A DNA stretch of 64,000 bases from Ktedonospora formicarum (lineage in GTDB: Bacteria; Chloroflexota; Ktedonobacteria; Ktedonobacterales; Ktedonobacteraceae), in the NCBI RefSeq assembly GCF_016587355.1, contig NZ_BNJF01000001.1:3811721-3875720 (forward strand), read 5' to 3'. The notes under the pieces are model-generated. The model searched no databases, was not told the origin of the DNA, and was given only the letters and a program-made list of their open reading frames with translations. Numbering within the stretch: position 1 is the first letter of the stretch; every line of letters starts with the position of its first letter. Positions 16,718 through 37,467 of the stretch are shown here, piece by piece. Position numbers and translations under genes: made by a program.

Positions 16718-16724
16718 TCACATA

Positions 16725-16761: not shown

Positions 16762-16786
16762 TTCAAAAGTGCCGAGTGGCCTACGA

Positions 16787-17221: not shown

Positions 17222-17277
17222 ATTTCGCCTCACTTACTAGAACATATGATCCAAAATCCCTCTAAAGAAAGTCTATC

Positions 17278-18714: not shown

Positions 18715-18724
18715 AAGGCACCCT

Positions 18725-20948: not shown

Positions 20949-21325
20949 CCCCCGAAGATTTCGCACAGATGCTTGCTAAGGCTGTTACCCAGGCGAATAC
21001 CCCTGCTGCCCCTGCTGCCCCCGCTCCCACTCCTGAGCCTGTCCAGAAAGGTGCCTCGCTCGACGAGGTGAAAGACCTCCTGGTTGCCTCATTCACCGAG
21101 TTCAGCAAACAGATCGACACCAAAATTGAGAAAGCGACCACCTTCTCTCGTGAGGGGGTTGGCCGCGTAGGCACCGTAACTCCCCAGGACGAGCGCGATG
21201 CTGACCCGATTAAGTATCTGGTCAAGAAAGCTGCTGGCGATCCCAATGCTCTCGACGATGTTGACAAGGCACTGATCGGCGAACTGACCACCCGCGCTCT
21301 TAAAGAAGGTATGCTCTACGAATAG
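20945..21325 (+). CDS. Scaffold-like head protein
   Basis: A 126-residue protein with an Ala/Pro-rich linker (TPAAPAAPAPTPEP) and helical flanks (SLDEVKDLLVASFTEFSK). Position between protease and major capsid protein, length and helical composition fit a scaffold or capsid-delta-domain protein. Role is inferred from synteny. Confidence 0.6.
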   Translation: MTPEDFAQMLAKAVTQANTPAAPAAPAPTPEPVQKGASLDEVKDLLVASFTEFSKQIDTKIEKATTFSREGVGRVGTVTPQDERDADPIKYLVKKAAGDPNALDDVDKALIGELTTRALKEGMLYE

Positions 21326-21352
21326 TCTCCCCTCGAAAGGCTTCTCCCCCTC

Positions 21353-22306
21353 ATGACTCTCTCCACAGATGAACTGATCCGTAAAGCATCGGGTCAGACC
21401 TCCACCACGCAGTTACAAGCGCTCATTCCTCAGATTTGGGCATCTGTCATTGAAAAGAATCTGCGCCGCCGCGCTGTCTTCCAGCAGTCTATCGTTGAGA
21501 ATACGGACTTGCTTGCTCCTGATGCTGGCGATCAGGTCTACATCCCGATTCTGCCTGATCTGGCCGCGCTTGGAAGCTTGACTGAAGGCACAGATATTGT
21601 ACTGACACAGCTAAATGGTGCGACCTCAATCCCCCTGAAACCAAGTGAAGTTGGTATGGCTGTTGAGGTCACTCGCAAGGCCCTTGACCGCCTGAAATAT
21701 GACGGTGTCGCCGAGGTGATGGATCGCCTGAGTTACGCGATGAGCCTGAACATGGAAGGTGCGTTTGCCAATCTGTTTAATGCGACCGTACCTGGCACCT
21801 CGACCAAAATCAGCACCATCTACGCCAACAACAAAGCGACTGGCACCATTACCACGACTGACACATTCAGTGATCAGTTGATTCTGAATGGTGTCGCTGC
21901 CCTGGAGCAGGCAAACAACGTGCCATTTGACGATGGCTACTACCGCTTGTATATCTCTCCAACACAGTACACCGCATTGATGATGGACCAGAACACTCGT
22001 CAAGACTTGCGGTATGCTGCGCCTGAGAGGCTTCTGACGGGCGAGAAAGGTGCTCTGCATGGGTGTCGCGTCATTGTCACAAACTTCGTCCAGAACACGG
22101 CTGAAGGCTCTGGTGGTGCGGTTCCTGTCCAGAATGCGATGCTGCTGGCTCCTCGTTGGGCTGCGGTAGCCTGGAAGCGTCGTCCACAGCCAATCATCGA
22201 TCCAACGCTCTATGACATGGGTCGCCGACGCCGCTTCGGCATCCTGGCTGACTACGACGCGCAGTTGATCCATGCTGAGCGTGCAATGGTGCTCAAGAGC
22301 GCGTAG
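21353..22306 (+). CDS. Major capsid protein (HK97-fold)
   Basis: A 317-residue protein with LIPQIWASVIEKNLRRRAVF, then YIPILPDLAALGSLTEG, MAVEVTRKALDRL and DDGYYRLYISPTQYTALM, in the order of HK97-like coat proteins of related phages. It lies directly after the scaffold-like gene. It would assemble the icosahedral shell. No obvious protease-cleaved N-terminal extension is present. Confidence 0.87.
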   Translation: MTLSTDELIRKASGQTSTTQLQALIPQIWASVIEKNLRRRAVFQQSIVENTDLLAPDAGDQVYIPILPDLAALGSLTEGTDIVLTQLNGATSIPLKPSEVGMAVEVTRKALDRLKYDGVAEVMDRLSYAMSLNMEGAFANLFNATVPGTSTKISTIYANNKATGTITTTDTFSDQLILNGVAALEQANNVPFDDGYYRLYISPTQYTALMMDQNTRQDLRYAAPERLLTGEKGALHGCRVIVTNFVQNTAEGSGGAVPVQNAMLLAPRWAAVAWKRRPQPIIDPTLYDMGRRRRFGILADYDAQLIHAERAMVLKSA

Positions 22307-22315
22307 GAGTGAGTC

Positions 22316-22948
22316 ATGGCATGGACGAATAATCCGTATTGCCAACTCGCTGACGTAAAACTGGTATTGGGCTCGCAGTCCACGGCGAATGACGCATGGA
22401 TTACGAACGACCTAATACCAGAGGCACAGACGTGGATTGATGACGAGGTAGGCTATTCCTTCCAGACGGAAGGGACACCTGATGCACCAGTGACCAAGGT
22501 CTTCTCTGGCAACAACGACGATTTCCTCATGGTTGGTTGGGTACAGCAGGTGACGAAGGTGGTCCAGACTGGCTACGCTGAGTCGGTAGGCTACGATGGA
22601 TACTTCAATACGGTGCTTACCTCGCAGCAGGACATCACAGGCGATGTGGTGATCGGGCCAGAGAACTTTAATCCTGGCTGGAAGCTGGAGCGCATGTCGA
22701 TGGCCCCGTTCTATGCTGGTCGCCGCAACTATCAGATCACTGGTGTGTGGGGCTATGGCTCAATCCCGGTTGACATCACTCGCGCCTGTGCTCGCCTCGT
22801 GGCTTTTTACGTCAAGATGCGCGATACCAACTACTCCGACACCTTGATTGAGCAAGGAGCGGCTCGACAGAAATACACGAAGACTCTCCCCGACGACATC
22901 AACGACATCCTCAAGCATTACCGGAAACGGTTCTTCTATAGCCGATGA
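22316..22948 (+). CDS. Head-tail connector protein
   Basis: A 210-residue protein. Helical N-terminus (CQLADVKLVLGSQSTANDAW, ITNDLIPEAQTWIDDEVG) followed by a beta-rich core and a helical RACARLVAFYVKMRDTNY segment matches head completion/adaptor proteins that dock on the portal. Placed immediately after the capsid gene. Confidence 0.75.
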   Translation: MAWTNNPYCQLADVKLVLGSQSTANDAWITNDLIPEAQTWIDDEVGYSFQTEGTPDAPVTKVFSGNNDDFLMVGWVQQVTKVVQTGYAESVGYDGYFNTVLTSQQDITGDVVIGPENFNPGWKLERMSMAPFYAGRRNYQITGVWGYGSIPVDITRACARLVAFYVKMRDTNYSDTLIEQGAARQKYTKTLPDDINDILKHYRKRFFYSR

Positions 22949-22966
22949 GAAAGCAGACCGCCTACG

Positions 22967-23431
22967 ATGGACATCGAGTTTTTGGACAATAACAATCTCA
23001 TTGGGAAGGATCTTGGGCGCGAACTCCTGACTGGCATCTACGCTGATGTGTCTACCTTGGGGAAGACCATCGGCCAGCGCATTATGGATCGCACCCCGCA
23101 GCGTGCTGGCTCTTTGGTGGCTGACGAGATCACCGAGATCAACACAGATATCAACGATCCCCTCCTGGCTCGCTGGTACACAGGCCAGACGCATCAGGTC
23201 GCAACATCTGGTCACACCTACGCGCAGTTCGTTGAAGGTCCACCGATGCCCACTGGTACTGATCCCATCGATGTTGGTGGTGTGAATGGTATGTGGGCGA
23301 CTCCACTCTATGTTCAAGGCTACTACGGTGCCAACATGTATGGCGAAGCGGCGACGGGTGACGACATGGACTACATCACCAACTGGTTCGAAGCTGGCAT
23401 CCAGAACGGCATTGAAAGGATGCTCGGCTGA
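22967..23431 (+). CDS. HK97 gp10-like tail/head completion protein
   Basis: A 154-residue protein. The start (LLTGIYADVSTLGKTIGQRI, then DRTPQRAGSLVADE) resembles gp10-type proteins, with a GHTYAQFVEGPPMPTG loop. The ribosome site is weak. It overlaps the next gene by one base (ATGA-type). Role in joining head and tail is inferred from order. Confidence 0.7.
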   Translation: MDIEFLDNNNLIGKDLGRELLTGIYADVSTLGKTIGQRIMDRTPQRAGSLVADEITEINTDINDPLLARWYTGQTHQVATSGHTYAQFVEGPPMPTGTDPIDVGGVNGMWATPLYVQGYYGANMYGEAATGDDMDYITNWFEAGIQNGIERMLG

Positions 23432-23868
23432 TGTACGAACCGCAAGACGTAATCTCCCCTATTATCAGTGCTATCGCCGACATTGTTCACACACAGATCT
23501 CCGGTGTGTCCCAGGTCTATGAGCAACCTCCCGATGGACCTCCAGAAGATGGCACTGTCGAAATCCCTCTCTCCAACTACAAGATTGCTGATGATACCAA
23601 CGGCAAGCTCTGTACGCATTTTACCTTCGGCCTCAGACACTTCGTCGTTCGCGGCTCCTTCCCTGAGAACGTCCTGGCTGCATACGCCTACTGGTGGCCT
23701 TACATGCAAGCCTTCTCCAGGTGGTCAAACCAATCCTTGGGTGGACGTGCGCGATTGATGACCGTCACCAACGGTGGCGTCACGCAGTTTGTGCAAGCTG
23801 GTCAGGTGTTCGTGTGCCTCATCGTGAACCTCGAAGTGCAATACGAGTTCAACATCCCTACTGATTAG
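23431..23868 (+). CDS. Tail terminator-like protein
   Basis: A 145-residue protein between the gp10-like gene and the tail tube gene, the usual place of the tail terminator/completion protein that caps the growing tube. The sequence has VISPIISAIADIVHTQISGV and HFTFGLRHFVVRGSFP but no firm motif. Call rests on synteny. Confidence 0.6.
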   Translation: MYEPQDVISPIISAIADIVHTQISGVSQVYEQPPDGPPEDGTVEIPLSNYKIADDTNGKLCTHFTFGLRHFVVRGSFPENVLAAYAYWWPYMQAFSRWSNQSLGGRARLMTVTNGGVTQFVQAGQVFVCLIVNLEVQYEFNIPTD

Positions 23869-23882
23869 GAGTTCCCCCTTCC

Positions 23883-24863
23883 ATGCCTCAGTCCCTTAGT
23901 AAACGTTCATATCTAGGAGTAGGCCGCGAATCGTTCCCAGGTACAGCCACCTCTGCTCCTACGGTATTCCACCCCACGAAATCCACCATGAAGGGCACGA
24001 AGAAGCGTGAGCAACTGAAAGAGGAACGTGGCAACCGCGACGGCGTGTACGGTATCGTTGACACCACACGTGAAGGTGCCATTGATCCCAAAGGCCCGTT
24101 CTACGTCGACACCAGCCCCTACTTCATGCTCTCTGCCTTCGGTGCGCTTGCCACCTCGCAGCCTGATGCAACCAATGTGCCGAGTCTCTACAAGCACGAC
24201 ATCACCCTTGCTGATCAGCCTCCGACCCTAACCCTCTTTAAGAACTATGATGCCGCTCTCTACGTTGGTGCATCAGCAGCCGTGGAGAAGTGGACGCTCA
24301 AGTTCGCGAGTGAAGGCAAGACCATTGAGGAAGACACGTCTTTCAAGCACCTGTATCCAGTCAAGTATGCTGGCGTCACGCTCTCACCGCAATTCTCTGA
24401 TGTGCAGCCATTCGCTGGCTATGCGCCAACTATCACACTGGCCGGGGTACAGACGCTCGACATCGACGATCTGACCATTGAGTTTGACCAGAAGTTGACG
24501 CTCTGGTATCCGATTGGTGGCTCGGCTGACTTCGCAGCGATCTACTACGGTGAGCGTAACGTCAAGGTCGAGTTTACCGCACGCTTCGATACCGACACTC
24601 TCTACAACCACTTCTTCAATGACCAGCGCCAGGACGACAGCTTTGTGCTCAATGTCAAGGGCAAGCAGCTTGGCTCCCACTCCGGCACGAACTACTATGA
24701 AGAATTGAACATCTCCGTTCCGGTGATCAGCTATGACTCGATGGAACACGACCTCTCGAAGGACAACGTGTTGATCAAGGCAAAAAGCACCGCTATTAGC
24801 AACGGAACCGAACCTCTCATCTCTGCCTACGTGCAGAACCTCGTCACCAGCTACACCTTATAA
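23883..24863 (+). CDS. Major tail tube protein
   Basis: A 326-residue beta-rich protein (FYVDTSPYFMLSAFGALATS; ITLAGVQTLDIDDLTIEFDQ; DRFDTDTLYNHFF-like region). Length, beta content and position before the tail chaperone pair and tape measure identify it as the tail tube subunit. The start follows a GGAGTTCC site. Confidence 0.8.
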   Translation: MPQSLSKRSYLGVGRESFPGTATSAPTVFHPTKSTMKGTKKREQLKEERGNRDGVYGIVDTTREGAIDPKGPFYVDTSPYFMLSAFGALATSQPDATNVPSLYKHDITLADQPPTLTLFKNYDAALYVGASAAVEKWTLKFASEGKTIEEDTSFKHLYPVKYAGVTLSPQFSDVQPFAGYAPTITLAGVQTLDIDDLTIEFDQKLTLWYPIGGSADFAAIYYGERNVKVEFTARFDTDTLYNHFFNDQRQDDSFVLNVKGKQLGSHSGTNYYEELNISVPVISYDSMEHDLSKDNVLIKAKSTAISNGTEPLISAYVQNLVTSYTL

Positions 24864-24875
24864 GGAAACCCCCGC

Positions 24876-25286
24876 ATGAGTGAACAATTTCTTTTTGATG
24901 ATTTCTTTGTTGCCCAGGATGCCAGTGATGAGGGCGAGCTAATCGAAGTCGAGATCAATGACCGTCTGGTTCCCGTTTACATCAAGCGTGGTCTGTCCTT
25001 CGAGGATAAGGCTGCGGCCAAGGCTGTTGGCGTGAAGCAGCGAGTGAAGCCTAATGGCGAGGTGGAGATTGTCTCGATGGACGAAGCTGCCTTCGCTGTG
25101 GAACTGCTCTATCGCTGCATTGTCTCCTGGCCCTTTGTCTACAGCTCCGGTCGCAAGGTTCCTGTCTCGCGTGAGAACATCCGGCTCATGCTCTCTGAGG
25201 GAGCCGAGGCAGTGGCACAGGTACTCCTCCAGCGCATCAATAAGAAGCGCGAGGCCAAGCAGCCTTTTACGACGCCTTCCGAGTAG
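24876..25286 (+). CDS. Tail assembly chaperone (gpG-like)
   Basis: A 136-residue acidic helical protein (FDDFFVAQDASDEGELIEVE; DEAAFAVELLYRCIVSWPFV). Position directly before the tape measure is that of the lambda gpG chaperone, which coats the tape measure during tail assembly. Near its end the sequence CCT-TTT-AC offers a -1 slip, and the -1 frame stays open to 25573. Confidence 0.8.
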   Translation: MSEQFLFDDFFVAQDASDEGELIEVEINDRLVPVYIKRGLSFEDKAAAKAVGVKQRVKPNGEVEIVSMDEAAFAVELLYRCIVSWPFVYSSGRKVPVSRENIRLMLSEGAEAVAQVLLQRINKKREAKQPFTTPSE

Positions 25287-25573
25287 AGCTTCGCCGAACA
25301 CTCCTCAAGGAAGGCACCCCCAATCCGACCATCCCGTCAGACTCCTTTGGGTTTCGACTCCAATGCTACGAGCAATTCGGCTGGACCCCCGCAGATGTCC
25401 TCAAGATTCCAGAGGGCGAGGCCGAATTACTCAGCATTTACTTCGAGGAGACAGCGGCTCACCAGTATCGGCAAAACCAAGAAATGAAGCGAAGATCGAA
25501 CGGTTCGTCAGGTCGGGCGAACGAAATAACTGATCTTGTGATTGAAGACGAAGAGGACGACTATGGCGAATAA
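25265..25573 (+). CDS. Tail chaperone -1 frameshift extension (gpT-like)
   Basis: In the -1 frame, translation continues as FYDAFRVELRRTLLKEGTPN and on to a C-terminal EDEEDDYGE, ending at TAA 25571-25573. There is no start codon with a ribosome site for this part, and its overlap with the tape-measure start is typical. The slip probably uses the T run CCTTTTAC (25263-25270): Phe TTT re-pairs with TTT one base back. This matches the conserved G/GT frameshift of long-tailed phages. Confidence 0.85.
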   Translation, partial: FYDAFRVELRRTLLKEGTPNPTIPSDSFGFRLQCYEQFGWTPADVLKIPEGEAELLSIYFEETAAHQYRQNQEMKRRSNGSSGRANEITDLVIEDEEDDYGE

Positions 25574-28571
25574 CGCAAGTATTGGTCTGCGTGTCTACCT
25601 CCAAGATGATGTGACCAGTGGGCTTGCGAAGTTCTCAACGAGCTTGATGGACACCAAGGATGCTGTCAGCCAACTTATCCCCCAGGTCATGACCTTTGGT
25701 GATGCTCTCCTTGATTTAGGTGAGGCGGTGATTGGCACCACTGACATTCTGGCGAAGTTCCGCACCACCGTCGCTGGTATCCGCACCAATATGAACAATG
25801 CGGAAGATTCATTCACGTCAATGGGTGAGGTGGCGATAGGAACTGGTGACATTCTCACAGACATGGGCACCAAGGCAATCCAGGCGTCTGAGGACATGCA
25901 AGAGCTTGGCATGACCATGATTGGTACGAAGGACATCGCCAATAACCTCGCCACAGCCGCGAAGAATGCAGCGAATAGTCTTCAGGAGGAAAGCGACACA
26001 TCCAAACCTGCTGGTGATAACGCATTCGCGCTTGCAATGGGTTTACAGCAGGCATCGCAGTACATGAGCGAGTTCGGAAAGACCCTGGACAAGACGGTTC
26101 TCAGTTCTGGTGATTTAGAGGATGCGTTCATTCGCGCTCAGATTGCGACCAAGGCAACAGGTGAAGATGTACAGACCTTGAATGAGGCCATCGTTAACCT
26201 GTCGGACCAGGGCATGTACTCAACGCAGCAGGTGTCCGAAGGCTTCCAGCAGATGGGTGAGCGTGGATATGACACGGCTCAGATTGTCAAAGATGGTCTT
26301 GGTGTGGCCGTGATGAACCTCGCTGAAGTTACCAAGTCGGATATGTTGACATCTGCTGACCTCCTGACCACGGCTCTGCGTGACTTTGGAGCCAGTGCGA
26401 AGGATGGGGAGAAGTACGCCAGTGCGCTCACCTATGCATTCTTCAACGGTATCCCTGATGTCAATGGGATGATCTCTGCCCTTCAGCGTGTTGGTCCATC
26501 AGCCTCGGCGCTTCACATCCCATTCGAGGATGTCATGTCCTCACTGATCTACCTGTCTCAGCATGGTATGCCCGATGTGAGTCAGGCAGGTACAGCCCTC
26601 AACTATATGCTGGCTGCTCTCTCTGCTCCGACTGGTGTGGCTGCAACCACCCTCAAGGATCTTGGTGTGAGCATGTACGACGTGAAGGGACACCTCAAAG
26701 ATCTGCCGACGATGGTCAGTGATCTGTTTGCAGCCCTTAACAAGCAGTCAGATTCCAAAGCCGCTGAAGATCTGCGAAGTATTCTCAACATTCGATCTGG
26801 TCAGGCTGGCAAGATCATGGGGAATAACACAAACATCAAGAGCGACCTACAGCAGGGAGCGAAAGATGTGAAGAATGCAGAGAATGCAGATTACATGATG
26901 AGTCAGGTGGACAAAGTTCGCGCAGACTTCAACCAGTCGCTCGCTCGCTTGCAGTCAACTTGGAACTCTACCTGGGGCATGTTGCTGCTTCCGGTCGTGA
27001 AGTGGCTGACCCCAATACTCGATGGCCTCAACAAACTTGTCTCAGAACTCAATCAAGCCAACCCACAGGTCAAGACGTTCATCGCCATCTTCGCCGGGAT
27101 TATGGCTGTCGCATTCCCGATTGGTGCTGTGCTTCTCGGTATTGTGGCACTGGTCATATTCCTGGGTGTGTCCGTAGCATCCACTGTGGGAATCATTTTT
27201 CTCGTAGTCATTGCGGTGGCAGCAGCAGTAGCAGCAGTCATTGCTTGGTGGGGGCCAATCTCAAGCTTCTTCGTGGGCTTGTGGAACAACATCAAGGCTA
27301 TAACCGCATCAGTGATTGCTTGGTTCCAATCCGCTTGGTCAAATGTGGCTGCTTGGTTCGGTGGTATCTGGAGCGGTGCTCAGTCAGCAACCGCATCAGT
27401 GATCGCTTGGTTCCGATCTGCTTGGTCAGGTACGGTTAGCTGGCTGTCTGGTATCTGGCGTGGAGTGCAAGGCGCGTGGTCATCATCGATGACTGCGATA
27501 GGCAACGTACTCAAGGCAGTGTGGGGAGGCATATCAGTAGCCCTTAAGGTCGTGATGGCTGCGGTCGTGAAGACCTTCATGACACCTGTGACTGCGATGC
27601 AATGGCTCTACAACCACAACTATTACGTGCAAGGATTTGTTGATTCTGTAGTGAACTTCTTCAAGTGGTTGTGGCAGCAGACAGTCATCATCTGGAATGG
27701 ACTGATTGGTTTTCTGACCAAGACGCTTCCTGCGGCACTCAAGGTAGCGTTCACTGCGACGGTCAATTTTCTGCGCACATGGTTGATCACTCCATTTCTC
27801 AACCTCATGAATACCATATGGGGTGGGGTCCAGACTGCGTGGACTGCGACGACCAACTTCTTCACGAAGACACTGCCTCCAATCCTCAAAAATGCATTTA
27901 CCTCTATCACAAGCTTCGTGAACACATGGCTGGTCATTCCTCTGAAGAACCTGCTAGGGCTTCTCGGAGGGATCGCCAAGTCAGGGTGGGATGCAGCAGT
28001 CGGTGCCTTCAACTGGTTCAAAGGTTGGGTAGGCTCATGGGCACCAGGAGTGCTCAACAGTATCCGACAGAGCTTTGCCAATTTTGGAAACTTCATCCAC
28101 ACATGGATTGTCGTCCCTGTCCAAAATCTTGGAGGGCAGATGCTCCAGTCAGGTATCAATTTGATGCGTATGATGGCAAACGGTATCGCCTCTGGAGCAG
28201 GTTGGGTCTATGACCAAATAGCGAATATCGCAAAAGGCATCTGGGCCAAACTTGGTTTCCACTCCCCGACGAAAGAGGGACCGCTCTCTGACTCGGACAC
28301 CTACATGCCGAACATGATGCGAATGTTTGCCTCTGGTATCACGCAACATGCACATCTCGTTCATAACGCGGTCAATCATGTTGCAGGTGGTATTGCGACT
28401 GGCATCAACACGCCTACCGTCGCTCGCCTCAATCAGCTCGGCACTCAGAGTCAGCAAGGCCAAGTGACCAACATCGCCCTCAATGTGGACGGAAAGACGG
28501 TCGGCACTGCGGTGTTCAACCATTTGACTGGACAGATGCAACTCAACGGACTCAACCGAGCCTGGAGATAA
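25563..28571 (+). CDS. Tail tape measure protein
   Basis: A 1002-residue protein that sets tail length. The ATG at 25563 has GAGG 6 bases upstream. N-terminal coiled/helical repeats include DTKDAVSQLIPQVMTFGDAL. The centre (about 500-560) holds a strongly hydrophobic stretch of several membrane helices. Trp-rich repeats follow (AWFQSAWSNVAAWFGGIWSG and its near copy). The tail ends in GTAVFNHLTGQMQLNGL. By the usual 0.15 nm per residue it would predict a tail of about 150 nm. Confidence 0.93.
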   Translation: MANNASIGLRVYLQDDVTSGLAKFSTSLMDTKDAVSQLIPQVMTFGDALLDLGEAVIGTTDILAKFRTTVAGIRTNMNNAEDSFTSMGEVAIGTGDILTDMGTKAIQASEDMQELGMTMIGTKDIANNLATAAKNAANSLQEESDTSKPAGDNAFALAMGLQQASQYMSEFGKTLDKTVLSSGDLEDAFIRAQIATKATGEDVQTLNEAIVNLSDQGMYSTQQVSEGFQQMGERGYDTAQIVKDGLGVAVMNLAEVTKSDMLTSADLLTTALRDFGASAKDGEKYASALTYAFFNGIPDVNGMISALQRVGPSASALHIPFEDVMSSLIYLSQHGMPDVSQAGTALNYMLAALSAPTGVAATTLKDLGVSMYDVKGHLKDLPTMVSDLFAALNKQSDSKAAEDLRSILNIRSGQAGKIMGNNTNIKSDLQQGAKDVKNAENADYMMSQVDKVRADFNQSLARLQSTWNSTWGMLLLPVVKWLTPILDGLNKLVSELNQANPQVKTFIAIFAGIMAVAFPIGAVLLGIVALVIFLGVSVASTVGIIFLVVIAVAAAVAAVIAWWGPISSFFVGLWNNIKAITASVIAWFQSAWSNVAAWFGGIWSGAQSATASVIAWFRSAWSGTVSWLSGIWRGVQGAWSSSMTAIGNVLKAVWGGISVALKVVMAAVVKTFMTPVTAMQWLYNHNYYVQGFVDSVVNFFKWLWQQTVIIWNGLIGFLTKTLPAALKVAFTATVNFLRTWLITPFLNLMNTIWGGVQTAWTATTNFFTKTLPPILKNAFTSITSFVNTWLVIPLKNLLGLLGGIAKSGWDAAVGAFNWFKGWVGSWAPGVLNSIRQSFANFGNFIHTWIVVPVQNLGGQMLQSGINLMRMMANGIASGAGWVYDQIANIAKGIWAKLGFHSPTKEGPLSDSDTYMPNMMRMFASGITQHAHLVHNAVNHVAGGIATGINTPTVARLNQLGTQSQQGQVTNIALNVDGKTVGTAVFNHLTGQMQLNGLNRAWR
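27300..27430 (+). repeat. Internal repeat in tape measure gene
   Basis: About 42 bp around ACCGCATCAGTGATTGCTTG (27303) recur near 27391 with a few changes, encoding two TASVIAWFQSAW/TASVIAWFRSAW units. Such units may change tail length by recombination. Confidence 0.75.
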
Positions 28572-28577
28572 ACCCTC

Positions 28578-30167
28578 ATGCCTATCATCACCTCTCCTTT
28601 TAGCCCAAGAGGCATGACGCAAGGTGGACTCAAGGTGACGCTTGCAGGGGTGGACATTACCGCGTATGTCGACGAGTCGAGTATCGATCTCAAGGACACC
28701 TTGGGCCAGGGCGCTGGCTCTGGCTCAGGGGCCAGTCCTCGTGCGAGTACCTTCTCGATGAAGTCCACACTTGGTCCCGCTGCCTCTGCTGTTGGTTCCG
28801 GTACGCGACCAACCAAACCAACGCTCGTGCGCAATGGTGAGCTTGTCATCTACGATGCGAATGGGAATCGCATCTTTGGAGGCTATCTCACCAAGATCAC
28901 CGACCAGACGGACTACACAACGGTCTACACCCAACTTGAAGGGGTAGACTACTGGCAGACCTTTGCTCGCATTATTGTCAATGAGATCTATTCTGGCATG
29001 TCGGATGTACAGATCATCTCTGCCTTGCTCCAGAAGTATGCGCCACAAATAAATATCAAAACTTTGCCACTAGCAGGTGGAATGCAGTTCTCCAGCAAGA
29101 ACTACCGCAACATGACGCTGCTGAACGCGCTGCAAGACGTGATCGACTCGACAGGCTATCAAGCATGGATCGACCCGTACAAGAACTTCCACTACTGCTC
29201 ACCGGGGCAGTCGAGTACAGCCCCTTTCTCCCTCTCGGATCACCCGGACTTCAAATCATCCTTCCAGGTTGGCGTGGACTCCTATGAGATTGATGATACG
29301 GCTGCAATCAATCGCGTCTTTTTCTACGGTGGAAGGAAACCATCAAATGACTTCGTCCAAGACCTCTCTACACAGGCTAATGGCAACAATACCACATTCG
29401 TCCTGGCGTACTACCCTCGATCCGCAAGCGACGGAGCGGTTCATGTCTATATCAATGGCGTGGAGAAAGCACTTGGCTACGTTGCTGGTTCTACGGATGC
29501 CGATAAGTTCAAGAGCGAGGGAGGAACCGCAGATGTACTTCTCAATGCTGATGCACACACTCTGACCTTCGATATGGCTCCAGTAGTAGTCTCGACGGTT
29601 ACCTGTAAATACCGCTATCAACTTCCTCTGGTGGTGGTCCTTCCTGATCCCGTTTCAGTGAAATACTACGGTGGTTACCTCGATGGCACGCTCTCCGATG
29701 AAACGGTGGTGGATGTGCAGGTTGCTGTTCAGCGAGCGAAGGTACTGCTCTTGGAGCAAGCGTATGGCCTCAAGACGCTGAAGCTGCGGTGCTGGCGGTC
29801 AGGATTACAATCCGGCATGATCCTGCGTGTCGATCACTCCATTCGTGGTATCCATGACTCCTTTGTCATCCAAGAGGTGGATACCAAACCGCTTGGGAAC
29901 GGCTTCTTTGAATACGACGTGACCTGCGGAGCCTGGAACTGGAGCATGGTGGATGTACTGAACCACCTGATTGCTTCTGCACAGCCGCAAGATGACTCCA
30001 CAATGGAAGACACAACCGCAATCGATGACCAGGAGCAAAACGAGAATTTCCATGTCAGCTTCTCGGTAGCCGCAATCCCCAAAAACCACGGAGGCTACTA
30101 CGCCCACGACTCGGCCCTTGGCGATGGTCATGACGCCTACTGTGGCTTCTCCTCGATAAGTAGTTAA
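28578..30167 (+). CDS. Tail protein, distal/baseplate-hub-like
   Basis: A 529-residue protein, right after the tape measure. It has beta-rich segments (GGLKVTLAGVDITAYVDES; GGYLTKITDQTDYTTVYTQL; STGYQAWIDPYKNFHY) like the hub/distal-tail proteins of long-tailed phages, and an acidic linker near the C-terminus. Exact role is inferred. Confidence 0.7.
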   Translation: MPIITSPFSPRGMTQGGLKVTLAGVDITAYVDESSIDLKDTLGQGAGSGSGASPRASTFSMKSTLGPAASAVGSGTRPTKPTLVRNGELVIYDANGNRIFGGYLTKITDQTDYTTVYTQLEGVDYWQTFARIIVNEIYSGMSDVQIISALLQKYAPQINIKTLPLAGGMQFSSKNYRNMTLLNALQDVIDSTGYQAWIDPYKNFHYCSPGQSSTAPFSLSDHPDFKSSFQVGVDSYEIDDTAAINRVFFYGGRKPSNDFVQDLSTQANGNNTTFVLAYYPRSASDGAVHVYINGVEKALGYVAGSTDADKFKSEGGTADVLLNADAHTLTFDMAPVVVSTVTCKYRYQLPLVVVLPDPVSVKYYGGYLDGTLSDETVVDVQVAVQRAKVLLLEQAYGLKTLKLRCWRSGLQSGMILRVDHSIRGIHDSFVIQEVDTKPLGNGFFEYDVTCGAWNWSMVDVLNHLIASAQPQDDSTMEDTTAIDDQEQNENFHVSFSVAAIPKNHGGYYAHDSALGDGHDAYCGFSSISS

Positions 30168-30175
30168 GGACACCC

Positions 30176-30883
30176 ATGAACGATTTGAAACTCGCCTGCA
30201 AGTGGACGGTGCTTGAGCGCGAGTGGCTTCCAATTTCTCGACGTGACATCTGGATACCACGACTCACCCGCAAGAACCTGTTCACCAACTACGGGCTATC
30301 TGCTCTGGCCTCTGCTCCCTCTGGCAACTATGTCGCTCCCGTGTACCTCGCGATTGAGAGCTTCTTCTCCCCTCTGAACGGACCTGTTAATCCTGGTGAT
30401 ATGTCTCTCTCGATCAACACTCCCGTTGATCAATCTGGTGACACGCAGGTAGTGGTAGACATTGGGAGTCCTAACCAGGAGGTAGTGAGCTTTAGTTCGG
30501 TGAGTGGCACGAGTGCCCCCTATACCTACAATCTCACTACTCCCTTTCAATACTCCCATCCGGCAGGAGCAAAGGTAGTTCGACAGGTGAACGTGAATGA
30601 CACGATCTCCAACCTGACGACTGAGGTACAGTACGATCCGGTGGGTAGCCCAGGATTGCGGCTGGCCTCTGGTGCTGGCTACTCCCTTGGGAACGGGCAG
30701 TACACCATTCAGTTCTACTTCACCTCAACAATGGCAGTCGCATACCTTGCTACCTGTGGCCTCACAGACTCCACCACGATTGGACAGGGCAACCTCCACA
30801 ACCACTTTGTCCTGGGCTATGACCACTCGCTCGGCACCAATGATGTGCAGATCAATGGCAACCTCACCATCGTCAATAGTTAG
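30176..30883 (+). CDS. Tail-associated structural protein
   Basis: A 235-residue Ser/Thr/Asn-rich, beta-type protein (SINTPVDQSGDTQVVVDIGS, YSHPAGAKVVRQVNVND). No enzyme motif. Placed between two large tail genes with short spacings, so it is probably a tail or fibre-attachment protein. Confidence 0.6.
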   Translation: MNDLKLACKWTVLEREWLPISRRDIWIPRLTRKNLFTNYGLSALASAPSGNYVAPVYLAIESFFSPLNGPVNPGDMSLSINTPVDQSGDTQVVVDIGSPNQEVVSFSSVSGTSAPYTYNLTTPFQYSHPAGAKVVRQVNVNDTISNLTTEVQYDPVGSPGLRLASGAGYSLGNGQYTIQFYFTSTMAVAYLATCGLTDSTTIGQGNLHNHFVLGYDHSLGTNDVQINGNLTIVNS

Positions 30884-30891
30884 GAATAGAC

Positions 30892-32349
30892 ATGGCACTT
30901 ACAGTTCGACAAAACGGGACGGGTCCATCCAACCTCATCTCGGCTGATTGGTTTAACGACTTCTACAAGTTGTTTACCGGGCAGATGGCAGATCAGCCGA
31001 TCACCTTCAAACCGAATGTTACCCTCCGGGCAATTAGTGCTGCTCCTTCTGCGCCAACCCTCACAGCATCATCTGGCACAGGCTTGGGAATCGGAGTGTA
31101 CAAGTATGCGGTGACCTTCATTTCAGCCGATGGTGGAGAAACACTCCCAAGTACAACCGCAAGCATTACGACAACGAGCGGAAACCAAAGCGCCTTCCTC
31201 ACCCCCCCCATTGGTCCGGCAGGAGCGACAGGACGTAATATCTACCGAACGAAAGTTGGAGGTACAGCACTCTTTCGCGTAGCTCAGCTTAATGACAATA
31301 CCTCAACAACGTACACAGATACGCTCGCAGATGCTTCTGTAGGCCCCGCCGCTCCCACGCATCCATCCTTTGGTGGCGCTCTCAAGTTTCAAGATGCCAA
31401 TGGGAATACCAACCTGACGATCTACTCCGATGGATCTCTCGTATCAGCAGGAGGCACCACCAACCTCTCTGGCTTGCTTGTAACGGATGGGTTGCTCGGC
31501 AAATCAACTCCTGGCGACATCATCGATATGGGAGGAACCAACACACTCTACATTAAAGGTCCAGGTGCTATCACCTTCCAACCCAATGCAGGAAACTCGG
31601 TAGCAGGTATAAATGGGAACGGTTTGTGGATTGGTGGTGTCAGCCTGGGTGACAGTGGTGGCAACCTCTTAGTGCCTGGAATCTCCTCCGGTTCACCGAG
31701 TAATGGCTTCACCTTTGGTCGTAACTCTGGATCAACGACCAGCTTCATCAACCACATCAACTCCGGTGGTGGGTTTGGCTTCAAGATCAATGGCTCTGCG
31801 AAGGCGCAGATCTTGAACAACGGAAACTTTGTCATCGCTGGTAACACCTACTATACAGCGCAATCCACGATTTTCTACACCGCAGGCGGCGCGTTTGCTG
31901 GTCTGGACTTCTCAGAGGTCTATCAGGTTGATCAGGAATATGCTATTGGCACCGTTGTCTGCCCCCAGGATGTTGCCACACCTATTGCTTACGATGGTAC
32001 ACCGCAATCTGGTCTGCCTCTGATGTCACAATGCACACATGAGAAGTGTGCTCTCGCTGGTGTCATCGTTCTCGTTCCCGGCTATTGCGCTGGCATGCCA
32101 AACTATCCAGGCATGGGCGACGACTATGACAGCAGCAAACCACTGAAGCAAGCAATCGCACAAGTTGGTCGTATCTTTGCCAACGCAACTGGCACCATCT
32201 CTGGTCGTCAGTATGTCACCTCAAATGGAGACGGAACCGTCCGAGCGATGGAATCTGGTGAATCTGGTATGTCCCTCGGCATCGCACTCTCCCCCACCGT
32301 CTCTGGTTTAGTTCCTATCCTCGTTCGCCCTACATTCGTCACCGTCTAA
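30892..32349 (+). CDS. Tail fibre/receptor-binding-like protein
   Basis: A 485-residue protein rich in Gly, Ser, Thr and Asn, with fibronectin-like first third (APSAPTLTASSGTGLGIGVY) and many GGTNxxx turns. The C-terminal part (DFSEVYQVDQEYAIGTVVCP ... ISGRQYVTSNGDGTV) resembles autocleaving or chaperone-like tails seen in fibre proteins such as the peptidase G2 group, but no catalytic pair was assigned. It is the likely host-recognition protein. Confidence 0.65.
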   Translation: MALTVRQNGTGPSNLISADWFNDFYKLFTGQMADQPITFKPNVTLRAISAAPSAPTLTASSGTGLGIGVYKYAVTFISADGGETLPSTTASITTTSGNQSAFLTPPIGPAGATGRNIYRTKVGGTALFRVAQLNDNTSTTYTDTLADASVGPAAPTHPSFGGALKFQDANGNTNLTIYSDGSLVSAGGTTNLSGLLVTDGLLGKSTPGDIIDMGGTNTLYIKGPGAITFQPNAGNSVAGINGNGLWIGGVSLGDSGGNLLVPGISSGSPSNGFTFGRNSGSTTSFINHINSGGGFGFKINGSAKAQILNNGNFVIAGNTYYTAQSTIFYTAGGAFAGLDFSEVYQVDQEYAIGTVVCPQDVATPIAYDGTPQSGLPLMSQCTHEKCALAGVIVLVPGYCAGMPNYPGMGDDYDSSKPLKQAIAQVGRIFANATGTISGRQYVTSNGDGTVRAMESGESGMSLGIALSPTVSGLVPILVRPTFVTV

Positions 32350-32359
32350 GGAGCCTCCC

Positions 32360-32560
32360 TTGAAACAGCACCTCACTCTCACCTCCCTCAAGCAAGTACA
32401 GGAGTTAGCCGTCCTCTCCAAGCACTACGAGGCCATGCTCCAAACAATCCAAGCTTCACTCGTCAAGGTCGTTCAAGATGACACAGGCATTGACGTGTCG
32501 AGCGGTGAGTGGCATCTCGATACCGACACAGGAGCAATTGAGCATGGCACCGCAGATTAA
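32360..32560 (+). CDS. Small hypothetical phage protein
   Basis: A 66-residue helical protein (TSLKQVQELAVLSKHYEAML) starting at TTG 32360 with AAGGAG 6 bases upstream. It ends inside the next gene (overlap 17 bases). Function is unknown. Confidence 0.6.
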   Translation: MKQHLTLTSLKQVQELAVLSKHYEAMLQTIQASLVKVVQDDTGIDVSSGEWHLDTDTGAIEHGTAD

Positions 32561-32825
32561 TCCTGACAACTACCAAGAGATAAGGCAAATCGTCGTGGAC
32601 GCAATTGAACCCCTCAAGGAGCAACTCGATAGGATCTATGAGTCCTTGAAAGACGACTACGCCCGCAAGGATGTGATTGAACCACAGATAGATGCACTGC
32701 GCAATGAGGTCAAGAGCCTGAAAGAGCAGGTCATTGGTACTCCACAGAAGCTTCTTATGTACGCAGGCTCTCTCGCTGCCCTCATTTGGACCCTCATAAA
32801 CATCTTTCAGTACCTCCATAAGTAA
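32544..32825 (+). CDS. Holin-like protein with coiled coil and one membrane helix
   Basis: A 93-residue protein starting at 32544 (AGGAG upstream). It has an acidic coiled coil (VVDAIEPLKEQLDRIYESLK, ALRNEVKSLKEQVIG) then a membrane helix LLMYAGSLAALIWTLINIF. Placed before the endolysin, it fits a lysis-cassette membrane protein (holin or holin helper); role inferred. Confidence 0.65.
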   Translation: MAPQINPDNYQEIRQIVVDAIEPLKEQLDRIYESLKDDYARKDVIEPQIDALRNEVKSLKEQVIGTPQKLLMYAGSLAALIWTLINIFQYLHK

Positions 32826-32834
32826 AGGAGTCCC

Positions 32835-33950
32835 ATGTCCATCATCCAAATGCCCACAAGCAACTTCTGGAAGGACCGCTCTGGCTACAAGCCGAAGTGG
32901 TTGATCGTGCATGGCACTGCTGGTGGCTCTAGCGCAAAGAATATCGCGCAGGGCTTCATCAACAGCCAGGGCACCAACAACCCGGTGTCTGTCCACTACG
33001 TGATCGGCCAGGACGGAACCATCGTGCAGTGTGTGCAAGAGAAGGATGCCGCCTGGGGAAATGGCGTCATTGATGCTGGCGCTGATTCCTGGTGGTCGAG
33101 TGCCCTCAATCCTAACCTCGTAACCATCTCGATTGAGCATGTGAAGCCGGACACCCAGAATGCTTCGGCCCTTACACCTGCGCAGCAAGCTGCATCCTTC
33201 TCCCTCATTCGTGAAATCTGCCAGCGCAATGGCCTCCCAATGAGGAAAGCAGACAAGAATGGCGGGATTACAGGCCACTTCTCTATTGCCCCCATCAACC
33301 GCGCTCATTGCCCCGGCACCTACCCCTGGCAAGACCTCTTCAACTACCTCAAAGGAGACGACATGCTTCAAATTACTGATGCCTTCGCTGCGGCCTACTT
33401 TAAGCAGGTAGCCACAAATCCTCTTCGCTGGCAATGCAACAACGGCTATGCTGTCCTGGGAGGCATCCTTGATTTCTATCGCAAGATTAATGGTGCCCCT
33501 CGACTTCCAAAGGGAAATGAACAGTACAACATTCCTGGCGTTGTGTGGCAGTTGTTTGAGGGTGGGATTATTGTGTACGATCCAGAGGGCAAGCTAGATA
33601 AGTTCCACACACCATTCCCTCCCTGCTACCTCCTCAAGCTGGACAGCGATCTGGCGAAGCAAGTCCTGGGTGCAGGTAACACGACTGATCTCCAGAACCA
33701 ACTGAACGCAGCCAACACGGCACTAGCGAATGAGAAGCAGACTGCGACATCCCTCCAGACGGAATTAAATACGGCAAAGACACAGCTTGATGCGGCCAAT
33801 AAGGCTGCTACTCAGGCGACTGCTGACAAGAACGCCGCACTGGCCCAGGTTGCCGATCTTCAGAATCAGATTGCCAACGCCCCTGACAAAACCGAAATCC
33901 TCAACGACCTCATCTCAGCTCTCCAGGCTGCTGCTAAGAACATCGCATAG
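32835..33950 (+). CDS. Endolysin: N-acetylmuramoyl-L-alanine amidase
   Basis: It breaks the bond between muramic acid and the peptide stem. The amidase-2 domain covers about residues 15-175: WLIVHGTAGGSSAKNIAQGF, SVHYVIGQDGTIVQCV, NLVTISIEHV, and GHFSIAPINRAHCPG, giving zinc ligands H26, H148 and C159. The C-terminal half has a linker region and a long coiled coil (QNQLNAANTALANEKQTATS). Length 371 is larger than simple amidases. It lies between two holin-like genes. Confidence 0.92.
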   Translation: MSIIQMPTSNFWKDRSGYKPKWLIVHGTAGGSSAKNIAQGFINSQGTNNPVSVHYVIGQDGTIVQCVQEKDAAWGNGVIDAGADSWWSSALNPNLVTISIEHVKPDTQNASALTPAQQAASFSLIREICQRNGLPMRKADKNGGITGHFSIAPINRAHCPGTYPWQDLFNYLKGDDMLQITDAFAAAYFKQVATNPLRWQCNNGYAVLGGILDFYRKINGAPRLPKGNEQYNIPGVVWQLFEGGIIVYDPEGKLDKFHTPFPPCYLLKLDSDLAKQVLGAGNTTDLQNQLNAANTALANEKQTATSLQTELNTAKTQLDAANKAATQATADKNAALAQVADLQNQIANAPDKTEILNDLISALQAAAKNIA

Positions 33951-33959
33951 GAGTACATC

Positions 33960-34331
33960 ATGCAACTTAACGATTGGGAACTTACCCTTATTGTCCAGTG
34001 CGTCTTCCCCTTCATCACTTCCCTGATCCTTCCCCTTGGTGCGTGGTTCTATCATTGGCTCCTCTCGAAGCTGCCTGCCAATCAGCAGAGTGTGGTCGAG
34101 GCAAATGTTGAGAAGGCTGTGAAGGCTGTCGAGCAGGCGCAGTCCCTTGTTCCTGGCGCAGTGAAGAAAGAGTATGCGACCAACCTGACGAACGCATTGC
34201 TCAAGACTGCTGGTGTGAAGGCCACTCCTGAGCAGGTTGATACGCTGATTGAGGCTGCTGTCTACCAGTTCAACGTCAATCGCCCCAAGCAGGTGACTGC
34301 TGCAATTCCTGCTGTTCCCTCAAACAAATAA
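33960..34331 (+). CDS. LLH-type holin
   Basis: A 123-residue protein with one N-terminal membrane helix (LIVQCVFPFITSLILPLGAW FY) and a helical C-terminal domain (VEANVEKAVKAVEQAQSLVP, NALLKTAGVKATPEQVDTLI), the pattern of LLH-type phage holins. It lies just after the endolysin, so together they form the lysis cassette. Confidence 0.8.
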   Translation: MQLNDWELTLIVQCVFPFITSLILPLGAWFYHWLLSKLPANQQSVVEANVEKAVKAVEQAQSLVPGAVKKEYATNLTNALLKTAGVKATPEQVDTLIEAAVYQFNVNRPKQVTAAIPAVPSNK

Positions 34332-34387
34332 GTTTACTTGCGTTGCTGCCTGCTATTGTGTAGTATTACCTCTACAAGGAGGTACAT

Positions 34388-34612
34388 ATGAAGAAAAAAG
34401 AGCTACCCTACTCACCACAACAGCCTGGACAACCTCAACAGATAACACAGTTCTACCACAAAACTTTAGGAAAGCTCGCGGCTGATAACTTCGAGAAGGA
34501 CTGCCGAGAGATGGAGGCTGATGGGTGGCGATTGGTGTTTGCGACACCTCTTGGTCACGGTTCTGGCTCAGTAGGCACTGATAGCCCTATCGTCGCCATC
34601 TACCAAAAATAA
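34388..34612 (+). CDS. Small hypothetical phage protein
   Basis: A 74-residue protein with an N-terminal Pro/Gln-rich stretch and a compact end, EADGWRLVFATPLGHGSG, resembling small DUF4177-like proteins. A GGAGG site precedes it. It is the last gene of the plus-strand operon before a two-way terminator. Confidence 0.6.
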   Translation: MKKKELPYSPQQPGQPQQITQFYHKTLGKLAADNFEKDCREMEADGWRLVFATPLGHGSGSVGTDSPIVAIYQK

Positions 34613-34618
34613 AAAGAA

Positions 34619-34656
34619 AAGACCCCTGCCCACATGTTGGGTAAGGGGTCATCGTA
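34619..34656. terminator. Bidirectional terminator between late operon and lysogeny genes
   Basis: GACCCC-TGCCCACATGTTGGGTAA-GGGGTC forms a stem with an inner CCCA/TGGG stem, flanked by A-rich and T-rich runs. It separates converging transcripts. Confidence 0.75.
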
Positions 34657-34659
34657 TTT

Positions 34660-34872
34660 CTAGTTCATCCAGTCTTCCCACTGGTTATCGATCTCCTCGG
34701 CAATGTAGACCAACCGATAAATGTTCTCGCCTATGTCTTTGAAGCCGAGAGCAGTCGGTCCATTCTTCCAGCGATAGGTAAGATCGTATTCACCAGGAAC
34801 TTCAACCAGATTGTCTTGTGTCTTGATGAAACCCTCTATCGCTGACTTCTGAAACGTGTCATCTCCGTTCAT
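34660..34872 (-). CDS. Small hypothetical protein beside repressor
   Basis: A 70-residue acidic protein (GFIKTQDNLVEVPGEYDLTY, NIYRLVYIAEEIDNQWEDW). It lies 9 bases after the repressor stop on the same strand, so it is probably co-transcribed with it in the lysogen. Function is unknown. Confidence 0.6.
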   Translation of the reverse strand: MNGDDTFQKSAIEGFIKTQDNLVEVPGEYDLTYRWKNGPTALGFKDIGENIYRLVYIAEEIDNQWEDWMN

Positions 34873-34880
34873 GGCTCCTC

Positions 34881-35297
34881 CTAGATGCTTTTCAATACCG
34901 CTTCAATCACACTACGAGCCTGAGCCTGCTTTTGTGCCGGAAGTGTCGAAATCAGAGCCGTAAGAGGATCACTCGACTCCTGGGAGAGTCCACGTCTGGC
35001 ATTGGGGTACTTGTCAGGCCAGTGTTTCATTGTTTTCTCAACCTCTTCGGTGAGTCCGAGCAGTTTACAGACTTGATAGAGATCTATGTCAAGGATAAGC
35101 ATTACCTTCAAGAAGTAGCCATACGGCATTCCAGCAGGTGCGGTCCTTGAGAGAACGCTCACCTTATCTGGCGCAATGTTTGCATTCTCTGCCGCTTCCT
35201 TGCGTGTCCAATCAAATGCTCTTAGTCGGTCGTTTACCAGTTGCGCGAGAGCTTCCTGCTGCTCCGGTGTAAAAACGATGTCCTTCTCGTAAGCCAT
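34881..35297 (-). CDS. Phage lysogeny repressor (HTH, cI-like)
   Basis: A 138-residue protein with an N-terminal HTH (RLRAFDWTRKEAAENANIAP then DKVSVLSRTAPAGMPYGY) and a short acidic C-terminal helical part, no peptidase domain. It is divergent from the integrase. The two promoters are back to back with their -35 boxes forming an inverted sequence, the usual design for a lysogeny switch. It is transcribed from TTGACA, 17 bp, TACTAT. Confidence 0.72.
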   Translation of the reverse strand: MAYEKDIVFTPEQQEALAQLVNDRLRAFDWTRKEAAENANIAPDKVSVLSRTAPAGMPYGYFLKVMLILDIDLYQVCKLLGLTEEVEKTMKHWPDKYPNARRGLSQESSDPLTALISTLPAQKQAQARSVIEAVLKSI

Positions 35298-35347
35298 CTA
35301 TCGCAACACCTTTCTCGATTACTTGTGCTAAATGTTGAATCGTAGAC

Positions 35348-35409
35348 ATAGTAGCAGGTAGGATACTGTTTGTCAATGGTTTGACTTTTGAGTTCCCCTC
35401 CAGTATACT
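35348..35409. promoter_or_regulatory. Divergent repressor/integrase promoters
   Basis: Minus strand: TTGACA (35371-35376), 17 bp, TACTAT (35348-35353), driving the repressor. Plus strand: TTGACT (35381-35386), 17 bp, TATACT (35404-35409), driving the integrase. The two -35 boxes join as GTCAA-TGGT-TTGAC, a likely operator shared by both. Confidence 0.8.
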
Positions 35410-35432
35410 CGATATATCGATACAAAGCGATA
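35410..35432 (+). promoter_or_regulatory. Palindromic site at the integrase start point
   Basis: CGATATATCG (35410-35419) is a perfect palindrome just after the -10 box, and TATCG/CGATA arms (35415-35419, 35428-35432) overlap it. It is a candidate repressor site on the integrase leader. Confidence 0.6.
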
Positions 35433-35446
35433 TAGAAGGAGTATAT

Positions 35447-37162
35447 ATGACTCAATATGAATTGCCAGATTTGACACAAACCTCGCCGGTGTATGCCATT
35501 GGCTATGCCCGTATTTCTGGTGATAAACAAAAGGATGGAGCTTCGCTTGAAACCCAGACAGCCGCTATGCGTCGTTATTGTGCCGAGCGTGGGTGGGTGC
35601 TGCTCGATGTGGCTCAGGAGGTCTACAGTGGGTACTATCTCATGGAGAGGAAAGTTCTGAGCGAGCAGGTACGCACTGTTGTCCGTGAGCGGCAAGCACA
35701 TGTCGTGATTGTCAACAGCTTTGACCGTCTCTCGCGTGACCAGACCCATTCAGCCGTACTGTATCATGAGATGATGGAGAATGGGGTACATCTGGTAAGT
35801 GTGACTGAGGAACTGGACAATTCTCCATTTGGGACGTTTCTTCGCCAAGCTATCAGCTTTGCTGCTGAGTTAGAGCGACAGAAGATCATCGAGCGTGCGG
35901 CTCGTGGGACACAGAACCGGGTGGATAAGGGGGAGATGATCGGTGCTGGTGTGCCGAAGTATGGGTACTCCTGGGGAGAGAACAACAAGTGCTACGTCAT
36001 CAATGAAGATGAGGCAAAGATTGTGCGTGAGATCTTCGAGCGATATGTGACACATGGTCAGTCGCTTCGTGCCATCGCAAAGTGGCTCAATGAGGAGAAG
36101 ATTCCAACGCGACATATGAGGCGTGGAAAAACGGATGAGTCTGGTTCTTGGTTTGCGTCCACACTGAGAAACATGATTGCGAGTGAGGAGTACCGTGGTA
36201 TTGGCTATAATCGCACCCTGAAGTGGGTAAGGGTTGATGGTCGCCGCAAACGGACAGAACACCCCAATCCAACGCTCTTGCCTGATGGTGTGGTTCCTCG
36301 CCTCATCTCTGACGATATGTGGTACGCTGCCCAGGCCAAGCGAGCAGTCGCCAAGGTTGAGTCACCTCGCAATAATCGGGAGCCAGAAGAGTGTCTGCTC
36401 CGTGGTGGTTTTATCATCTGTGGATACTGCAATCGCGTCATGCAGGTCGCTCGCGCTCGAAACTACTACGATAAATCGAGAGGGAGAACAAAGCACCGAA
36501 AGGCACAGTACGTCTGTAATTCTGGTGGTGAACTTCCTGGTCGTTGTTCCAGACGTGCATCGATGATGATCGATTTTATTGATAACGAGGTGTGGGTTGC
36601 AGTCAAGGAACTGCTCGAAAATCTTGATCGCGTGCGGGAAGTGCTGACTGCTCCGGTTGTCAACGGTGTTGCGGCTCACCTCTTGAGTGTGGAGAGCCAG
36701 ATCGCGGATACCAAGGCAGAGATTGCTCGGCGCGTTCAGGATATGGCAGGATTCACCGGGTACGCTCGTGAACTTACTGTTGCGGAGATCAATCGACTTG
36801 AAAAGCAACTGAAAGACCTGGATGGAATGAGATTGCAAGCTATTCCAGAGGCGAAGCAAGAAGAGAGCGTCCAGAGAGATATTGAAGCCTTTCTCTCCTG
36901 GTGTCTTACCTTCAAGGGGAACTACGATGCAGCCACGTATGAGGAGCGGCGTAGAGCGTTACGCCACCTGGGTGTGAGGGTCTTAGTGTACCAGGAATCG
37001 GACCCGGATCGTCCCAGGTATAAGATCACTGGTAAACCAGAGTTGTTCGCTCGCCTGCACCTGAAGAAGGAGGAGACGGATGGGAAGCAAGCGACCGATT
37101 CTGTACATACTTCCTCGCAGATCGCCACGCGATATCCTTTGCCTACGAGTCGGGCGATGTAG
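35447..37162 (+). CDS. int: Large serine integrase
   Basis: This site-specific recombinase integrates and excises the prophage. The N-terminal resolvase domain has [12 protein letters not shown] (catalytic Ser24) then [15 protein letters not shown] recombinase DNA-binding domain follows ([29 protein letters not shown]). A zinc ribbon [11 protein letters not shown]...CNSGG and a coiled coil complete it. The start at 35447 follows AGAAGGAG. It is 571 residues long. The stop codon lies in host mutS sequence, so the last ~18 residues are coded by host DNA in this arrangement and would change on excision. Confidence 0.93.
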
Positions 37163-37404
37163 CCATCTGCCGCATGATGTGGGATGCCAGCCATGGGTGA
37201 CTTTTGCCCACGCCCAAAGTCGCGACGGGTCAGGGCAATCTCTAGCTCACGCGCCACAATTTCGGCGTCGTCGTCAAACATCTCATAGAAGTCGCCCATG
37301 CGGAAAAAAAGGATCGCGTCGGGATGCTGGCGCTTGATGTTGAGATATTGGCTGCGTACCGGGCTATGATTATCGGTCTCTTTTGCGAACTCTTCGAATA
37401 GCAC
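36922..37404 (-). pseudogene. mutS: mutS, 5' fragment interrupted by the prophage
   Basis: The GTG at 37404 has AAGGAG 6 bases upstream and gives [20 protein letters not shown], then [16 protein letters not shown] and [16 protein letters not shown], the conserved mismatch-binding N-terminal domain of MutS including the Phe-x-Glu motif (F in FYEMF). After about 98 residues it enters phage DNA and ends at 36922 with an unrelated 60-residue tail. The rest of mutS should lie beyond the other prophage end. The host is predicted to be mismatch-repair deficient while lysogenic. Confidence 0.92.
37088..37112. other. Phage-host junction (attR region) within mutS
   Basis: The MutS protein match holds through [10 protein letters not shown] (minus strand, to about 37,100) and then stops. 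The crossover is therefore near GTACATACTTCCTCG (37102-37116) or just left of it. The exact core, usually two bases for serine integrases, needs the left junction, which is outside the window. Confidence 0.75.
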
Positions 37405-37438: not shown

Positions 37439-37467
37439 AGTATAAGACTATTCCTTGGATGCGTCAA
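37439..37467 (-). promoter_or_regulatory. mutS promoter
   Basis: On the minus strand, TTGACG (37462-37467), 17 bp, TATACT (37439-37444). It is intact and would drive transcription into the prophage, antisense to the integrase end. Confidence 0.7.

Follow-up and report, generated by a model that had tools for sequence, protein, structure and literature searches.

A serine-integrase prophage in mutS of Ktedonospora formicarum and its predicted in-frame MutS chimera

The window analyzed in this work, a stretch of 64,000 nucleotides of Ktedonospora formicarum (C1:3811721-3875720 of the 10.67-Mb genome, C1 being contig NZ_BNJF01000001.1), carries the 5′ end of a mutS gene that breaks off at the edge of a prophage (Table 1). 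This fragment starts with a GTG at 37404, preceded by an RBS-like aaggagag, and comprises about 97 codons of domain I up to ...GYRVAICE at the att core (37114-37118). From there, its frame continues in phage DNA until a stop at 36922. MutS_I was its single Pfam match (116 bits), and comparison with the uninterrupted mutS of three congeners gave 86-87% amino acid identity over 120 residues. Judged by these matches, the fragment is the authentic host 5′ end of mutS. Together with the promoter-like site TTGACG-17-TATACT, which matches the consensus at 10 of 12 positions and is a consensus match only, it is now parted from the remainder of the gene. An earlier, sequence-only reading of this DNA had described a retained mutS promoter and start, about 98 codons that then run into phage DNA and a large serine integrase ending at the junction. 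These features were all found again, the promoter as such a consensus match and the integrase as a frame (35447-37162, plus strand) that overlaps the junction.

The integrase gave Pfam matches to PF00239 (95 bits), PF07508 (74 bits) and PF13408 (26.7 bits, with a cut-off of 25.3). Its 3′ end crosses attR, and in the lysogen the last ~15 residues are hence encoded by host DNA; for the circular phage we computed a different 28-residue tail, ending in ...SSLVCTENDEFLFVVMPNRELLFPSWAA. As the integrase frame thus crosses attP, integration would alter the integrase C-terminus, too. Between the att sites, packaging, head, tail, lysis and replication functions are all represented, also including a DNA polymerase and a primase, and the DnaB-like helicase is part of a leftward replication module that is directed at the mutS gene of the left prophage end. 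This gene content points to a temperate tailed phage with a large serine integrase, for which recombination and excision are predicted. The prophage also contains a DNA methyltransferase beside a restriction-endonuclease-like gene (window 13696-15864, minus strand; PHROG 116 and 1639), possibly a restriction-modification pair.

Table 1. Features of the mutS junction and of the prophage part inside the window (window positions; L007, left-flank sequence numbering)
Feature	Position	Strand	Remarks
Prophage, part inside the window	1..37118	.	whole prophage C1:3802674-3848838, 46,160 bp
DnaB-like replicative helicase	112..1065 (L007:17833-18786)	-	PHROG 19
Terminase large subunit	17278..18714	+	PHROG 2; 86% identical in sister prophage
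Portal protein	18677..20230	+	PHROG 12
Major head protein	21353..22306	+	PHROG 1357
Tail tape measure protein	25542..28571	+	PHROG 58
Endolysin / amidase	32835..33950	+	PHROG 1794
Holin	33960..34331	+	PHROG 6918
138-aa ORF adjoining integrase	34881..35297	-	87.7% aa identity in G015
Large serine integrase, 571 aa in lysogen	35447..37162	+	Resolvase, Recombinase, Zn_ribbon_recom
Phage half of attP, TTCTGTACATACT	37099..37111	.	perfect 13-bp inverted repeat with left-end copy, 8-bp spacer
attR core CTCGC (GCGAG in mutS sense), central dinucleotide GA	37114..37118	.	junctions and empty-site relatives compared
Orphaned host mutS 5′ end	37114..37404	-	MutS_I only; 86-87% aa identity to congeners
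Promoter-like site of host mutS, TTGACG-17-TATACT	37439..37467	-	10/12, consensus match only

The left end of the prophage is located 9.05 kb beyond the window border, at C1:3802674-3802678. Here, the flank holds a second mutS frame (C1:3800178-3803021, minus strand), which is complete with 947 amino acids, MutS domains I-V and its own start. The first 87 residues of this left-end MutS are 71% identical to the right-hand fragment. The left gene thus is complete but has a different N-terminus, from which it follows that the locus contains two mutS 5′ ends and one body. When the left-end MutS was compared with 29 family genomes, residues 116-946 matched one mutS per genome and correspond to the host mutS, with 90% identity in congeners. 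In contrast, residues 2-87 showed just 65-74% identity to relatives (70-72% to congeners), and no match was found in these genomes for the 28 residues 88-115. In relatives, the empty site is uninterrupted and reads ...VAICEQVSDPALSKG..., and synteny is kept on both flanks, with transketolase and transaldolase-type genes on the left and an FtsW-like gene and others on the right. The diverged residues 2-87 and the unmatched stretch behind them hence indicate that a spare mutS 5′ end, whose frame reads through attP, was brought along by the phage. This phage-supplied 5′ end has its own ATG and ribosome-binding site, a strong RBS-like GGAGGAGG.

The lysogen would accordingly encode a full-length chimeric MutS with phage residues 1-~114 followed by the host remainder, whose expression and activity are predicted. 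Integration had been proposed to remove mutS; this does not agree with an intact 947-aa ORF, the first ~114 codons of which are phage-supplied, so that integration swaps the 5′ end and does not switch the gene off. It had also been expected that the left end would encode MutS from residue ~99. The host body is indeed located there, but as part of a complete frame and not headless, and we therefore discarded a simple split of the gene.

Comparison of both junctions with the empty-site relatives corroborated a split of mutS itself through site-specific recombination of the phage. The attR core is common to attL at the left prophage end. We also considered the 13-bp TTCTGTACATACT match as crossover core; its copies, however, are opposite in orientation, and a join at this site puts mutS out of frame. 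On sequence grounds, these copies are the arms of attP, and GCGAG is the crossover core. Joining the phage sides yields an attP of TTCTGTACATACTAGC-GA-GGAAGTATGTACAGAA, predicted to contain ...TTCTGTACATACTAGCGAGGAAGTATGTACAGAA..., and joining the host sides yields an attB of GATCTGC-GA-GCAGGTC, predicted to contain ...GATCTGCGAGCAGGTC.... Serine-integrase sites are expected to be quasi-symmetric about a central dinucleotide. Both sites are symmetric about the same non-palindromic GA that attL and attR have in common, attP at 14 of 16 and attB at 7 of 10 positions, and for either site this centre ranks above all others among the 14 tested. Misassembly would not produce such symmetry. Moreover, an in silico join of the host flanks gave a 948-aa MutS that aligns end-to-end with its congeners (89.6% identity, one 1-aa gap), in support of the earlier claim that excision should rebuild mutS; precise excision is predicted to restore the host gene exactly.

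In an alignment with MutS chains of the PDB, phage residues 2-87 correspond to E. coli 11-96, and the host sequence resumes at ~94. The extra 28 residues (DQAAQEGKSSSRLGMTTNKNSSFSVHTS) are therefore located in domain I between CEQ(I/V) and GDP, and relative to its congeners the chimera has a 28-31-residue insertion. The attP-encoded part of this linker is read in frame, and the remainder probably forms a hydrophilic, flexible spacer. As an insertion within domain I, the linker could harm mismatch binding of the chimera. The phage-replaced portion of MutS, ~114 codons, includes the F-x-E mismatch-binding motif. Just upstream of the phage-supplied start lies a terminator-like hairpin typical of a strong terminator (L007 9088-9067), and no convincing sigma-70-type promoter was found on the minus strand between this hairpin and the start.

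We consider it very probable that a serine-integrase phage is inserted in domain I of mutS and that its spare 5′ end is fused in frame with the interrupted gene. The sequence comparisons strongly support the anatomy of the locus, the chimera with its continuous frame, the source of either half and the att symmetry; from them we infer integrase action at this site, excision, and expression and activity of the chimera. The temperate tailed phage would integrate in the domain-I coding region of mutS at the conserved motif VAICEQVSDP (E. coli ~91-98) and carry, across attP, a homologous mutS 5′ end with ATG and RBS plus an attP-encoding linker. With the spare 5′ end in this position, recombination at the 5-bp GCGAG, with the crossover at GA, would fuse phage codons 1-~114 in frame, and host codons would supply the rest of MutS. 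In the lysogen, the chimera would thus be composed of a phage mismatch-binding half-domain, 28 extra residues and the host remainder, and the host promoter and 5′ end would be orphaned at the other junction upon integration. Excision would restore the native mutS and leave no scar. The spare 5′ end likely renders integration harmless, and the most likely role of the device is to make insertion into a conserved gene tolerable, while mutS, as long as the phage is integrated, would be given expression signals and an N-terminus of phage origin.

Lysogeny might do more than that if exchange of the mismatch-recognition half-domain and of the expression signals changed the specificity, level or timing of MutS. 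We regard this as unlikely, but as a prediction it is possible that the phage changes mismatch repair in lysogens. If true, the phage would edit the mutation spectrum of its host, for example coupled to the leftward replication module, which goes beyond mere insertion tolerance. We give little credit to a mismatch-repair switch, as put forward in the sequence-only reading, in which integration breaks mutS, excision restores it and mutator and wild-type states alternate. SpyCI in the mutL gene of Streptococcus pyogenes operates in this way (PMC3430984), and in the present locus, too, the host promoter and start are cut off from the gene body and excision would rebuild mutS. In active lysogeny of the comK or SpyCI-mutL type, however, integration inactivates the host gene, whereas here the left end encodes a complete, putatively active MutS with its own start in the integrated state, which argues against an on/off control by integration. 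In addition, a second full-length mutS is intact directly upstream of mutL (L008 3956-6670 = C1:3914955-3917669), the very observation that the sequence-only reading had named as speaking against its switch. This mutL-linked MutS has 904 amino acids and is ~45% identical, and both types occur in most family genomes. Loss of activity of the chimera thus would not necessarily result in a mutator.

The phage mutS 5′ piece might also act mainly as a separate protein of the free phage, a domain-I fragment of ~179 amino acids that could, for example, compete with host MutS, and its fusion would then be incidental. In the circular phage, the frame would indeed comprise 179 amino acids, the N-terminal piece has the look of a constrained sequence, and Bacteroides phage B124-14 has a stand-alone MutS domain-I protein of ~81 amino acids, encoded beside a DNA invertase gene (L039 2492-2737). 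We nevertheless judge this quite improbable because the piece lies directly beside attP, and its in-frame fusion to the rest of the host gene falls precisely on the homologous position. Moreover, a sister prophage is devoid of both the piece and the integrase, so that the piece appears to travel with the attachment module. Hardly any weight remains for tandem mutS paralogues that predate the phage, one of which was hit and lost its remainder by deletion while the other stayed intact. Two different mutS N-termini flanking the prophage would fit such a history, and a separate mutS paralogue in the genome makes duplication conceivable. Relatives, however, have one mutS at this locus, and identity within the mosaic left gene changes abruptly at the att core (90% after it, 70% before); on these two grounds we ruled out the paralogues. 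Besides, a palindromic attP arises solely if both junctions are exact crossover products.

In a phylogenetic tree, the host fragment grouped inside the host-genus clade, whereas the phage copy fell outside the mutS clade of the order on a long branch (0.56; support 86/86, to be taken as rough). The phage copy was therefore probably captured from a related mutS long ago. Compared with the host copy, the phage piece showed a pN of 0.205 and a pS of 0.85, the latter saturated, and it has stayed protein-like, with no stop and the GDFYE motif kept. A second phage with an integrase-attP-mutS 5′ module was not found in scans of IMG/VR, INPHARED and GTDB, where pattern scans reach close relatives only, and IMG/VR contigs related by terminase or polymerase, mostly fragments, contained no mutS piece and no PF07508 recombinase. 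The module hence stands as a single instance.

A colinear sister prophage is located at another locus of congener G015 (C1:~4636000-4680000; L118-L120), the own mutS of which is intact. Most of its proteins are 60-90% identical, the terminase 86%, and nucleotide homology stops at prophage positions 1214 and 44344, so that it is without exactly the integrase, attP and the mutS 5′ piece. The 138-aa ORF adjoining the integrase, for which we found no Pfam or PHROG match, is the last gene common to both prophages and thus marks the edge of this module. At its left end, the sister prophage has a different serine recombinase of 693 amino acids, whose gene and a cysteine-synthase-like gene overlap at their 3′ ends; the sister prophage may use another gene-end target. 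From this it follows that the spare mutS 5′ end moves together with the integration module; by this comparison, it is not a general gene of the phage lineage. A second, more distant related prophage, with a terminase 62% identical, lies in the same genome as the prophage in mutS (G000 C1:~3062900-3101000; L124-L126).

Hundreds of Beta- and Gammaproteobacteria have been described to contain mobile elements within mutS that provide both a new start and a promoter (Chu et al. 2017, PMC5296598), and the novelty that had been claimed for a phage split of mutS was thus overstated. Examples are found in Vibrio splendidus 12B01, E. coli 536, P. putida F1 and B. multivorans CF2; excision results in a frameshift in V. 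splendidus and in an intact mutS in the other three species (PMC5296598). Like the prophage studied here, these elements lie within the mutS coding sequence, orphan the host start and provide a new in-frame start that keeps mutS open. Upon their excision the host gene is rejoined, as is predicted for the present prophage. They also supply a promoter; at the present locus, a terminator-like stem precedes the start and no minus-strand sigma-70 match was seen. Their insertion site is the HTPMMQQ motif, at the very N-terminus of MutS (PMC5296598), and the site at VAICEQVSDP lies ~85 residues further in. In E. coli 536, ~15 codons are exchanged and the integrase is of the tyrosine-integrase type (Arm-DNA-bind_3 and Phage_int_M), in contrast to the large serine integrase, the ~114 replaced codons, the added 28-aa linker and the host outside the Proteobacteria in the present case. 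As both site and integrase family differ, the present case looks like an independent origin and suggests that a serine-integrase phage of a non-proteobacterial host separately gained a mutS insertion with a spare 5′ end. New here are the mutS site, the serine integrase, the amount of the mismatch-binding domain that is replaced and the host group.

The same principle has been found in other genes for SXT in prfC and IMEVchUSA3 in dusA (PMC8409611). These are non-phage elements, and in the dusA case 35 residues are replaced and no linker is added. SpyCI silences mutL and its operon upon integration, the one known rescue being a cryptic promoter after decay (PMC3430984). Like the present prophage, it is phage-like and sits in a gene of mismatch repair, and it excises precisely, as the prophage would; unlike the prophage, SpyCI causes loss of function on integration and has no spare coding sequence. 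The attP-bearing gene of mycobacteriophage BPs encodes the repressor, that of the present phage the integrase. In the integration-dependent systems of BPs, attP is located within a gene that belongs to the phage's lysogeny module, so that integration changes the gene product (PMC4557955); in the present phage, the same would apply to the integrase.

As the replaced portion, previously a few residues, now covers most of the mismatch-binding domain, an effect of the phage on MutS becomes directly testable. The locus further offers a defined integrase whose att sites lie in a conserved motif, and it cautions that a half gene next to a prophage border is not necessarily a broken gene. Other candidates for a split mutS in the phylum, short frames in G196, G012, G097 and G013, were rejected as they lie at contig ends. 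In two related genomes, the orthologous mutS is broken by frame changes or a stop (G007 C1:4292709-4295440, G009 C1:3854078-3856808), possibly owing to natural loss or sequencing error.
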